From Neisseria zalophi (GTDB lineage: Bacteria > Pseudomonadota > Gammaproteobacteria > Burkholderiales > Neisseriaceae), in NCBI RefSeq assembly GCF_008807015.1, contig NZ_CP031700.1, forward strand, positions 1,054,001 through 1,118,000: 64,000 nt of DNA, written 5' to 3'. This document shows positions 7,700-10,960 of the stretch, in pieces. Positions within the stretch are counted from its first letter, which is position 1, and each line of letters opens with the position of its first letter. The notes below the pieces were generated by a model that saw nothing but the letters and a program-made list of their open reading frames with translations, had not been told where the DNA came from and did not search any database. Made by a program: the position numbers and the translations under genes.

Positions 7700-9895
7700 A
7701 TGGGTAATGCCACATGTAATGTTGCTCAACCGTCATGTGAACAGAGTTTCTCGCTTAGAAAACGATACCGTAATGTAACAATTTCCATAGCTATATTCTT
7801 GGCTTTAGTTTCCGGGTTGATGTATTACAGTTACAGTATCTCGGTCAAAATTCAAAGAAATCAAGTCCAAATTGATGCAGCTGGCACGCTGAGCGATACT
7901 TTCTACGATATTTTGACAGCCACCCAAGCATTGCAAATTTCAAGTTTGGAGCAGAATGCGGCAAAAATGGCATCGGCAACTAACCCTGCTGAAATGCAGC
8001 TTGAAGATGCTCATTATGTCACTCGGCAAATAGAAAAACAAAAATGGTTGGAAGAACGCCATAAAACGGCGGAAAGTTTGCTTCACATCTTAGATAAAGG
8101 TGGTGCATATGATGTGGTGGAAGGTGTCGAACACATCATGCCTTTAGAAATTGAAGAAACCAGACGTTCCTTGGATGTTGTTGAGCGTATTTGGGGGCAG
8201 TACCAATCATTATTGAGCAAGGCAACTGCTTATCCGGCTGGTTCAGGCGCTAATGCCGACTTTGCGAAAGAAGTATCGGAGTTCGCAGCACAAAATCAAG
8301 AAGAAATTTATGATCAGATTGATGAGATTATTGTCGTTCTGAATGAAAATATTATCGAATATGCGACCTTACAAAGAAATATTCAGATAGCAGGTATCAC
8401 TTTATCTCTATTGTATTTTTTATTTTTTATAGGGTTCTTCATGCGGCGGCTGACAAAATCCGACCGAGAAGCGGCTATGGTTCGCCGTGAGAATCTAGAA
8501 ATTTTACAAACTGTAAACAGTGGTTTGTTTTTATTAGATAAAAATTTAAATATTGGTTCACAATATTCTCAGGAATTAGAGCATCTGTGGGGTAAAAAAA
8601 ACTTTGGTGGACAAAATATGCTCAGTGTTTTGTCTGACATGGTGAGCAATCCCGATGATTTGGAAGTTGCCGGTAGTTTTGTGCGTCAGCTGTACAATCC
8701 GAGAACTAAGGAAAAATTAATCGGTAGTTTGAACCCATTAAACCGTACCCCTATGCTCGTGACCAATCAGAAAGGGGTAAAGGAAACCCGTTATTTAGAC
8801 TTTAAATTTAATAGGGTATATCACGATAATGAGATTGCCCGTGTATTGGTTAGCGTAACAGATGAAACTAATTCGGTATTATTGGCCGATAAAATTACCA
8901 AAGAACGTAAGCAAAATGATTTACAGATGGAAATGTTGTCTTTCATTTTAAATGCGGATGCCAAATTGCTGACTGACTTTATTGATACAGCTAAAAAGCG
9001 TAATAACAGCATTAACGAGGTTTTAAAGCGACCGGTAAAAGTTCAAACAGATTTCTTTGATAAATTACGTATGATTTTTAGAGAAGTGCATGGTTTGAAA
9101 GGGGATGCCAGTTCTTTAAGTTTACATGGGTTTGTGACTATTGCGGAAAGACTAGAAGAGAATCTTAAAGATTTACAGCAAAGAAACACTTTAAACGGAG
9201 AGGATTTCCTCATGTTGACTGTGTCGCTGGAAGAATTGTTCAACCTCACTCAAACCATTGAAGATTTACATAACCGGATTAATAAAGCTACCGAAAATGG
9301 GGGACGTTCGTCACTTGCCGCACGTCATATTAAAAAGTCCGATCCAATGAAAACACAGCTCAATAAGTATGTACAGGAACTGGCTGAACGAAATGGTAAA
9401 AAAGTAGATTTTAATTGTGAAGGTATGGACAACCCACGTATCAGTATGATGGTAAGAAGTCAATTTAAGGAGTTGGCGGTACAGTTGTTAAGAAATGCTG
9501 TTGTGCACGGTATTGAAGTGCCTCAGGTTCGCAAACAAAAGCATAAATTGGAGTCGGGTCATATACGTTTGGTTTTAGAAGAAACAGAAAATACTTTCCG
9601 TCTTGATATACAAGATGACGGTAGCGGCATTGATACCGAGCTAATCCGTGCGGCCTTGGTGAAACAAGATATGTATTCTGAGGAAGAGGCTGCCAAGTTG
9701 GATAAACAGGCATTGATTCAAAAAATCTTTATGCCCGGATTTTCTACTATGGCTGATAAAAATGAAGATGCGGGGCGAGGTGTCGGTATGGATCTGGTAA
9801 ACGATAGAATCAAAAAGTTGAAGGGTAAAATATCTATTTCTACTCGGGTAGGTGCTTATACATGTATTACCTTAAGCATACCGAATAAATTTTAA
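7700..9895 (+). CDS. Membrane-bound CheA-like histidine kinase with Hpt domain
   Basis: This 731-residue two-component kinase has CheA-like phosphotransfer and ATPase modules but a sensor-kinase layout. Two membrane helices (about 26-48 and 228-248) flank a helical periplasmic region of about 180 residues. A PAS-like stretch follows (about 265-390). An Hpt domain carries HGLKG with the predicted phosphorylated His464. The CheA-type ATPase shows N box LLRNAVVHG (596-604), G1 DDGSGID (639-645), F-box FMPGFST (677-683) and G2 GRGVGMDLV (692-700). No CheW-like domain is present, and no chemoreceptor or CheW gene is nearby. It is followed by CheY-like and CheX-like genes on the same strand, its likely partners. 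The sensed signal is unknown. The gene looks more AT-rich than its neighbours. Confidence 0.9.
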   Translation: MGNATCNVAQPSCEQSFSLRKRYRNVTISIAIFLALVSGLMYYSYSISVKIQRNQVQIDAAGTLSDTFYDILTATQALQISSLEQNAAKMASATNPAEMQLEDAHYVTRQIEKQKWLEERHKTAESLLHILDKGGAYDVVEGVEHIMPLEIEETRRSLDVVERIWGQYQSLLSKATAYPAGSGANADFAKEVSEFAAQNQEEIYDQIDEIIVVLNENIIEYATLQRNIQIAGITLSLLYFLFFIGFFMRRLTKSDREAAMVRRENLEILQTVNSGLFLLDKNLNIGSQYSQELEHLWGKKNFGGQNMLSVLSDMVSNPDDLEVAGSFVRQLYNPRTKEKLIGSLNPLNRTPMLVTNQKGVKETRYLDFKFNRVYHDNEIARVLVSVTDETNSVLLADKITKERKQNDLQMEMLSFILNADAKLLTDFIDTAKKRNNSINEVLKRPVKVQTDFFDKLRMIFREVHGLKGDASSLSLHGFVTIAERLEENLKDLQQRNTLNGEDFLMLTVSLEELFNLTQTIEDLHNRINKATENGGRSSLAARHIKKSDPMKTQLNKYVQELAERNGKKVDFNCEGMDNPRISMMVRSQFKELAVQLLRNAVVHGIEVPQVRKQKHKLESGHIRLVLEETENTFRLDIQDDGSGIDTELIRAALVKQDMYSEEEAAKLDKQALIQKIFMPGFSTMADKNEDAGRGVGMDLVNDRIKKLKGKISISTRVGAYTCITLSIPNKF

Positions 9896-9989
9896 TATTC
9901 TATTGGGGCGATAAAAGCCATATATGATATTTTTTACTATATCGGATATGGCTTTAAGAATTAATCACAACACATTATAAAAAGGGAAA

Positions 9990-10373
9990 ATGATGATTAC
10001 TATTATGGTAGTGGATGATTCTAATGTTATCCGAAACCGTATTACACGCAGCTCTGAAAGCAAGGGGTTTGAGGTGGTGGCTACGGCAGCCAACGGGGTG
10101 GATGCCGTACAGTTGTATGAAATATTGAAGCCGGATTTAGTCACGATGGATCTGACGATGCCGAAAATGGACGGTTTGGCTTGTATCCGTAATATTATCA
10201 ACTTAGATGAAAATGCCAATATTCTGGTGATTTCCGCATTGGCAGATAAGGCCACAGGTATTAAGGCGTTGGAATATGGTGCACGCGGGTTTATTTATAA
10301 ACCTTTTACCGATGAGGATTTATTTGAAGCGTTTCGTGAAATGGCGGCAGAGGTTGTAAATGAAAGAAGATAA
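9990..10373 (+). CDS. CheY-like single-domain response regulator
   Basis: This 127-residue stand-alone receiver domain has no output domain. The acidic pair Asp9/Asp10 (VVDDSN), phosphoacceptor Asp54 (VTMDLTMPKMDG), Ser82 (ISAL) and Lys104 (YKPF) are all present, so it should be phosphorylatable. The probable donor is the upstream Hpt-containing kinase, and the probable phosphatase is the CheX-like protein whose gene overlaps its 3' end by 14 bp. As in CheY, output would be by protein binding; no flagellar motor exists in this genus, so the target is unknown. The start could be either of two adjacent ATG codons after AAAAAGGGAAA. Confidence 0.93.
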   Translation: MMITIMVVDDSNVIRNRITRSSESKGFEVVATAANGVDAVQLYEILKPDLVTMDLTMPKMDGLACIRNIINLDENANILVISALADKATGIKALEYGARGFIYKPFTDEDLFEAFREMAAEVVNERR

Positions 10374-10851
10374 AATACAAGTTTTTTTAGAAGGCGTACG
10401 CAAATATTTTACCCAAGTGGCAGGGGAAGAAGTATTTATCGGAACCCCTTATTTGGTGGAAAACAAGATGCCTGCCGCACAGCATTATTCAGGTGTGATT
10501 GCAGTATCTGGATGTACCAGAGGTATTGTATATTTTACTTGCCCTCAACAAATGGCAAGACGTTTACTGGTGTTAATGGGTGAAACAGACACTTCGGAAG
10601 AAAATATTATGGATTTGATTGGTGAGGTTGCCAACACAATTGCCGGTAATGCACGAAGTCAATTTGGTGAAAAATTCGAAATTTCTGTACCTGTTGTGAT
10701 AAGGGGAGCTCCAGATGAAATTATGTTGCCTCGGGAGGGACGGTCTTTTGTGATTCCTTTGGAATGGGAAAAACTACAGGCAGCAATTATTGTTGCTTTA
10801 TATAAGGCAACGGGTTGTGTGCAGGCAGTAAGCAAACCTGTTGCACAATAA
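10360..10851 (+). CDS. CheX-like CheY-P phosphatase
   Basis: This 163-residue protein resembles the CheC/CheX/FliY phosphatase family that dephosphorylates CheY-P. The diagnostic active-site helix is visible as IGEVANTIAGNA (87-98), with the Glu89-x-x-Asn92 pair characteristic of CheX. The flanking beta-strand elements (GVIAVSGCTRGIVYFT and VIPLEWEKLQ) also fit. The gene begins inside the last codons of the CheY-like gene, which indicates translational coupling and a stoichiometric partnership. The three genes therefore form a kinase / receiver / phosphatase circuit. Only one copy of the motif is present, as expected for CheX rather than CheC. Confidence 0.85.
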   Translation: MKEDKIQVFLEGVRKYFTQVAGEEVFIGTPYLVENKMPAAQHYSGVIAVSGCTRGIVYFTCPQQMARRLLVLMGETDTSEENIMDLIGEVANTIAGNARSQFGEKFEISVPVVIRGAPDEIMLPREGRSFVIPLEWEKLQAAIIVALYKATGCVQAVSKPVAQ

Positions 10852-10912
10852 ATCAAGTAGAGGTATGTTTTTTTATTTTGTTATAGTGACTCGGTATCTG
10901 ATCAACATATAT

Positions 10913-10943
10913 AAAGGCTGTCTGAATCATTCAGACGGCCTTT
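10913..10943. terminator. DUS-pair hairpin between cheX-like gene and ubiM
   Basis: Fourteen-nt arms AAAGGCTGTCTGAA and TTCAGACGGCCTTT enclose a 3-nt gap. One arm is a one-base DUS variant (GCTGTCTGAA), which remains paired as a G-U wobble in RNA on one strand. It lies in a convergent gap and so probably acts as a bidirectional terminator. Confidence 0.75.
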
Positions 10944-10960
10944 ATTCTTTGCTTATTTGT

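Follow-up and report, generated by a model that had tools for sequence, protein, structure and literature searches.

A receptor-fused, CheW-free CheA-type kinase encoded with CheY and CheX in Neisseria zalophi: a predicted chemosensory-type pathway of the Neisseriaceae

A 64,000-nucleotide stretch of Neisseria zalophi DNA (GCF_008807015.1, contig NZ_CP031700.1, positions 1,054,001 to 1,118,000; the window, by which we mean the whole stretch analysed) carries three co-directional genes on its forward strand. Judged by their sequences, they are predicted to encode a receptor-fused, CheW-free CheA-type histidine kinase together with a CheY and a CheX, and thus a variant of known chemosensory pathways. 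We consider it very probable that the three proteins follow the logic of a self-contained, chemosensory-type pathway that operates without receptor arrays. As an explanation of the whole, we lean towards an array-free pathway in which phosphorylated CheY (CheY~P) would act on an MglA-type GTPase/Roadblock module and on type IV pili. Full-text literature searches, whose coverage left out most subscription journals, returned no published description of the kinase-cheY-cheX unit and, as the original prediction had supposed, no characterised member from Neisseria.

Results

The kinase gene (7700..9895, 731 amino acids) is followed by cheY (9990..10373, 127 amino acids) and by cheX (10360..10851, 163 amino acids), which overlaps cheY by 14 nucleotides; the order, the overlap and the coordinates are exactly those of the original prediction. 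Pfam searches placed all four diagnostic domains above their curated cut-offs, with E-values of 3.1e-07 for Hpt, 1.3e-13 for HATPase_c, 4.8e-28 for Response_reg and 4.2e-22 for CheX. From its N-terminus, the kinase is predicted to consist of a transmembrane segment, a periplasmic helical sensor, a second transmembrane segment, a PAS-like region, an Hpt domain and a P4 ATPase, without the CheW-like P5 domain.

The Hpt domain, which resembles CheA P1 (residues 423-504; 8966..9211), carries the putative phosphoacceptor His464 (9089-9091). PF01627 (Hpt) matches 36 of 36 family kinases and the histidine is invariant among those aligned (38/38 and 36/36), in agreement with its earlier assignment. 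The ATPase (residues 593-729; 9476..9886) contains an N box (LRNAVVHG), a G1 box (DDGSG) and a G2 box (GRGVGMD), and is similar to the P4 domain of Thermotoga maritima CheA at E-values of 2.2e-25 with a single sequence and 2e-54 with a profile. Its description as CheA-type was borne out by PDB matches to the CheA P4 domain, and the top NCBIfam matches of the kinase were CheA models, covering the ATPase only. The P3 dimerisation domain gave no Pfam match in the kinase, and a profile alignment to 4xiv extends weakly into P3. Pfam detected no P5 or CheW-like domain in the protein, which stops after P4, and no HisKA (DHp) family matched the window protein or 36 relatives, which have Hpt instead. 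The engine should function in a CheA-like manner. CheA has been defined by the core domains P1, P3, P4 and P5, without a sensor domain (PMC10782961); because the kinase is devoid of a CheW-like domain and has a sensor, it is not a CheA under this four-core-domain definition.

CheY is a stand-alone receiver with no fused effector or output domain. Its predicted phosphoacceptor, Asp54 (10149-10151), is invariant across aligned family members and is accompanied by Ser82 and Lys104. The third protein is a predicted CheX-family phosphatase: it scores 78.5 bits against PF13690 (cut-off 27), and D85, E89 and N92 of its D85xxxE89xxN92 motif, which contains the ExxN catalytic motif, are invariant in 19 of 19 sequences. 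The possibility raised earlier, that this protein might prove not to be CheC/CheX-like, is thereby answered. From these residues we infer that phosphate would pass from His464 to Asp54 and that CheX would be active on the product. The genes were originally called a phosphorelay; a single His-to-Asp transfer is predicted, and the multi-step relay that the term also implies is not.

Other parts of a chemotaxis system had been said to be missing from the neighbourhood, and flagella from the genus, and both statements extend further than first claimed. CheW gave no match in the N. zalophi genome. Across 83 Neisseriaceae genomes, no methyl-accepting chemotaxis protein (MCP) domain scored above its curated cut-off, with one sub-threshold match outside the N. 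zalophi genome, and the FliM/FliN C-terminal domain (PF01052) was absent from all 83. Since there is no FliM, fused output domain, MCP or CheW, CheY~P would have to act by binding a protein.

Hydropathy places the first transmembrane segment at residues 25-44, the periplasmic sensor at 45-227 and the second transmembrane segment at 228-250 (7772..8449; limits approximate). AlphaFold2 models the periplasmic region as long helices, four in number (predicted local distance difference test, pLDDT, 81), with a conserved GG134-135 and W165; together with the flanking segments, this fits the original proposal that the kinase senses by its own periplasmic region. In the model the sensor is a helical bundle, and it is probably of the PilJ/NarX type, given the helical fold and the matches of relatives to PF13675 (PilJ N-terminal domain), which nine of the 36 family members show at E <= 0.01 and which exceed its cut-off in L157, L159 and L163. 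Foldseek searches with a sensor-only model listed NarQ, McpN and aspartate-receptor sensors, none of them significant (best E 0.03). The cytoplasmic module described as PAS-like (residues 265-395; 8492..8884; strands at 351-388 predicted with low confidence) fared less clearly, with no Pfam match in the window protein and PAS_4 matches in 2 of 36 relatives (residues 356-402 in L157). The full-length AlphaFold model of the kinase (pLDDT 49) was too poor for judging the cytoplasmic part.

Genes for binding lipoproteins adjoin several units, which suggests that at least the paralogous kinases sense solutes through them. An ancient clade of 11 paralogous kinases (SH-aLRT 97) comprises exactly those directly adjoined by a gene for a Peripla_BP_4 lipoprotein, of sugar-binding type (11/11, against 0 of the 27 remaining kinases; Fisher P 8e-10, a descriptive value since the rows are related). 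SBP_bac_3 lipoprotein genes lie upstream of the kinase in L082, L084 and L269 and downstream of cheX in L077. A dedicated sugar-binding partner was also sought in the N. zalophi genome and the candidate rejected: the sole homologue found (G000:C1:1011792) adjoins an RbsC-type permease and looks like part of an ordinary transporter. At L093:11078-13114, a double-length binding protein of 678 amino acids, apparently two fused periplasmic binding domains, is encoded divergently from a kinase-cheY pair.

The kinase occurs in 29 of the 83 Neisseriaceae genomes, representing 9 of 12 genera, and CheX in 28, with exactly one copy each; the sole kinase-bearing genome without CheX is 58% complete. Carrier genomes encode one to four kinases, several genera having extra kinase-cheY pairs, and at every one of 38 Neisseriaceae kinase loci the kinase has a cheY of its own immediately downstream in the same orientation, mostly after fewer than 60 nucleotides. 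Of the named genomes searched, N. dentiae and Neisseria sp. MVDL19-042950 alone gave matches. Beyond the Neisseriaceae, about a dozen full-length relatives came out of a search of 399 order-level genomes. Neighbourhood comparison revealed the kinase-cheY-cheX order in ten other Burkholderiales loci, and a class-wide profile search yielded thirteen further gammaproteobacterial units with all three genes. At L256 the open reading frame filter used showed kinase and cheX without displaying cheY, and L263 contains the kinase alone. Since the same gene order recurs in Burkholderiales and Gammaproteobacteria, the unit is conserved far beyond Neisseria.

Further features of the loci may be recorded here. 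In the window, a strong RNA hairpin (9914..9955, forward strand; z = -3.41, 0/200 shuffles) lies within the 94 nucleotides that separate kinase and cheY; a repeated mobile element was considered and set aside, as no second copy was found in the window. Gaps in the window's own clade are long (94, 101, 115 and 298 nucleotides), G053 excepted (32 nucleotides), and are below 60 nucleotides elsewhere. In the gammaproteobacterial genome G555, two kinase-cheY-cheX units stand in tandem (L258:5742-13431), one of them with two adjacent CheX genes, and each is followed by a gene of no assigned family (312 and 291 amino acids). A gene for a PP2C-Ser/Thr kinase protein adjoins the unit at L251:5500-7212.

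Gene linkage within the family points to a candidate output. In the two related genera g7 and g8, a gene for an MglA-type, Ras-like GTPase (about 200 amino acids; 326 in G062) lies directly upstream of cheX, or of the whole kinase-cheY-cheX unit (L092), on the same strand in 7 of 7 genomes with CheX. The linked protein is related to a GTPase found in 70 of the 83 Neisseriaceae genomes. This GTPase is present in all 29 carriers of the unit, compared with 41 of 54 non-carriers, and the 13 genomes that lack it all lack the unit (P 0.002, not corrected for kinship). The N. zalophi genome encodes a Ras-like GTPase in a conserved operon (L264:4924-9167; G000:C1:544,923-549,166) with genes for a TPR protein, a receiver-like protein, a 213-amino-acid protein and a Roadblock protein (E-values of 8.7e-11 for Ras and 2.2e-15 for Robl_LC7). 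Group 3 MglA proteins of beta- and gammaproteobacteria are Ras-like GTPases encoded near Roadblock and receiver-like genes (PMC4316618), and the L264 neighbourhood fits this group, an assignment based on that paper and on taxonomy. PilB/PilT-type (T2SSE) ATPases are encoded in the same genome. In Snodgrassella, another member of the Neisseriaceae, mutation of the Roadblock gene mglB alters soft-agar spreading, an effect attributed to type IV pili (PMC11112851), and a response regulator conveys the signal of a Che-type system to the MglA/MglB switch of Myxococcus (PMC3441718). Because of the g7/g8 linkage, the co-occurrence in carriers, the Snodgrassella phenotype and the Myxococcus precedent, we favour, as a tentative assignment, a CheY~P that might act on the GTPase module and hence on type IV pili.

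Several observations weigh against this assignment and the inputs proposed with it. The 41 genomes with the GTPase and without the unit indicate that the GTPase has other inputs, and close linkage is confined to g7 and g8. No GTPase, pilus or binding-protein gene adjoins the window unit, the window kinase itself has no match to the PilJ domain, and that domain is related to nitrate-sensor domains. Outside the Neisseriaceae the neighbours are of other kinds, with EAL-GGDEF in L163-L165, a REC-Ser/Thr kinase in L253 and, close to the unit of L159, a gene for an MCP, a hint that outputs may differ by lineage.

Alternatively, CheY~P could act directly on the motors or the assembly proteins of type IV pili without a GTPase, as PilG and PilH of the Pil-Chp system do. 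The PilJ-type sensors of relatives and the T2SSE ATPases of N. zalophi are in keeping with this, and Pil-Chp is an earlier case in which twitching is under CheY-type control (PMC12632253, PMC10896506). However, no pilus gene was recognised adjoining the unit in the loci inspected, and the linked neighbour in g7 and g8 is a GTPase, not a pilus gene, so that direct action on the pilus appears rather unlikely. The unit might instead control gene expression or a second messenger system (cyclic di-GMP or Ser/Thr phosphorylation), with CheY serving a cyclase, kinase or regulator as its allosteric partner. In its favour, three related genomes have the EAL-GGDEF gene next to the unit in divergent orientation, and the REC-Ser/Thr kinase fusion is encoded directly 3′ of cheX (L253:11113-12357); these neighbours are, however, restricted to single lineages outside the Neisseriaceae and none adjoins the unit in Neisseria, and we consider an output of this kind unlikely.

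The inheritance of the unit bears on the original suggestion that it was acquired as a cassette. On a tree of the UbiH protein, a single gene standing in for the species tree, carriers of the unit cluster together (8 changes, versus 19.8 in shuffles), and a 21-species Neisseria clade is entirely without it, consistent with one loss at the base of that clade. The kinase tree recovers the UbiH groups (window and G053; G019, G020 and G029; G010 and G036; G014, G034, G038 and G049), and kinase and UbiH identities show a rank correlation of 0.78. G012 is the exception, with a UbiH that falls among Neisseria and a kinase that groups with genera g2, g9 and g12; because the two placements conflict, its copy (L077; G012:C1:574000-593000) may have been transferred horizontally.

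The genes are more AT-rich than their neighbours, as had been noticed, with a GC fraction of 0.39-0.42 against 0.456 in the flank. In every Neisseria copy the unit lies below its flanks, yet it tracks the host, at 0.55 in a 0.61 locus and 0.39 in a 0.456 locus. The hairpin with an inverted pair of DNA uptake sequences (DUS) that had been read as a further sign of acquisition does exist (10911..10945, forward strand, in the interval between cheX and the convergent ubiH); it carries no such meaning, being an ordinary terminator in a region rich in DUS, of which the 64-kb window contains 75. Within the unit itself there are 0 DUS in eight DUS-rich Neisseria species (the window, L061-L066 and L077), although intragenic density predicts about 18, the species being not fully independent. 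A plasmid origin was considered and rejected, as no plasmid record spans even half of the kinase.

Lower GC, the lack of DUS and the misplaced G012 copy notwithstanding, a recently acquired and possibly non-functional cassette is highly improbable in view of intact open reading frames, invariant catalytic residues, largely congruent kinase and UbiH trees and presence in 9 of 12 genera. Because its GC also tracks that of the host, we read the unit as an old accessory locus, inherited mostly vertically with losses, and not as a recent arrival, with G012 kept as an exception.

Discussion

In the pathway that we propose, the kinase would sense a ligand with its helical bundle in the periplasm, directly or through a periplasmic binding protein, and the signal would travel through the second transmembrane segment and the PAS-like region. 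The CheA-type ATPase would then phosphorylate His464 in the Hpt domain of the kinase itself, the phosphate would be passed to Asp54 of the neighbouring CheY, and CheX would dephosphorylate CheY~P; in genera with paralogous kinase-CheY pairs, the pairs would use one common CheX. CheY~P would bind a protein, for which the best-supported candidate is the group 3 MglA-type Ras-like GTPase/Roadblock module acting on type IV pili. A broader statement, that this class of pathway is widespread in beta- and gammaproteobacteria and in the Neisseriaceae reads periplasmic solutes, partly via sugar-binding-type lipoproteins, and switches the GTPase/Roadblock module to bias type IV pili, with absence from one large Neisseria clade, is speculative and somewhat unlikely to hold in all its parts.

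If this broader reading is correct, it amounts to taxis without MCPs, CheW or flagella. Surveys based on CheW or HisKA would tend to overlook this kinase family, because it combines a CheA-type engine with a membrane sensor of its own and lacks the CheW part. The unit offers a minimal three-protein system for testing chemosensory signalling without receptor arrays. For the Neisseriaceae, where other chemotaxis-type parts were not found, it provides a sensory input to surface behaviour that can be put to the test. It may also act upstream of group 3 MglA GTPases, as a partner to proteins for which we found no input described.

In TorT-TorS and LuxP-LuxQ a sensor kinase works with a periplasmic binding protein, and the paralogues resemble these systems in having a periplasmic sensor region encoded beside a binding-protein gene. 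The differences lie in the lipoprotein nature of the partner, in an Hpt/P4 kinase in place of HisKA, and in CheY and CheX in place of a DNA-binding regulator.

The proposed output resembles the Frz-RomR-MglA/MglB system of Myxococcus xanthus, in which type IV pili are positioned by a Ras-like GTPase/Roadblock switch with input from a Che-type kinase and a receiver (PMC3441718). MglA belongs to group 1 there and to group 3 here (PMC4316618), RomR and FrzCD were not identified here, and the link drawn here is one of gene neighbourhood. With the Pil-Chp system of Pseudomonas and Acinetobacter (ChpA-PilJ-PilG/PilH), the unit shares a CheA-type kinase that would act on CheY-like proteins, a PilJ-type sensor in relatives and a possible type IV pilus link. 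In Pil-Chp, however, the receptor PilJ is a separate protein, CheW proteins take part, and ChpA has multiple Hpt domains and a receiver fused to it, in contrast to the single Hpt and the CheX found here; with no CheW in the N. zalophi genome, no MCP above cut-off and no receiver fused to the kinase, the unit falls outside Pil-Chp. The canonical CheA-CheY-CheX/CheC systems, for example those of T. maritima and spirochaetes, likewise differ, in that here CheW, P5 and MCP are missing, kinase and sensor form one protein and the family has no flagellar switch, although all share an Hpt domain with a P4 ATPase, a single-domain CheY and a CheX with the ExxN motif.

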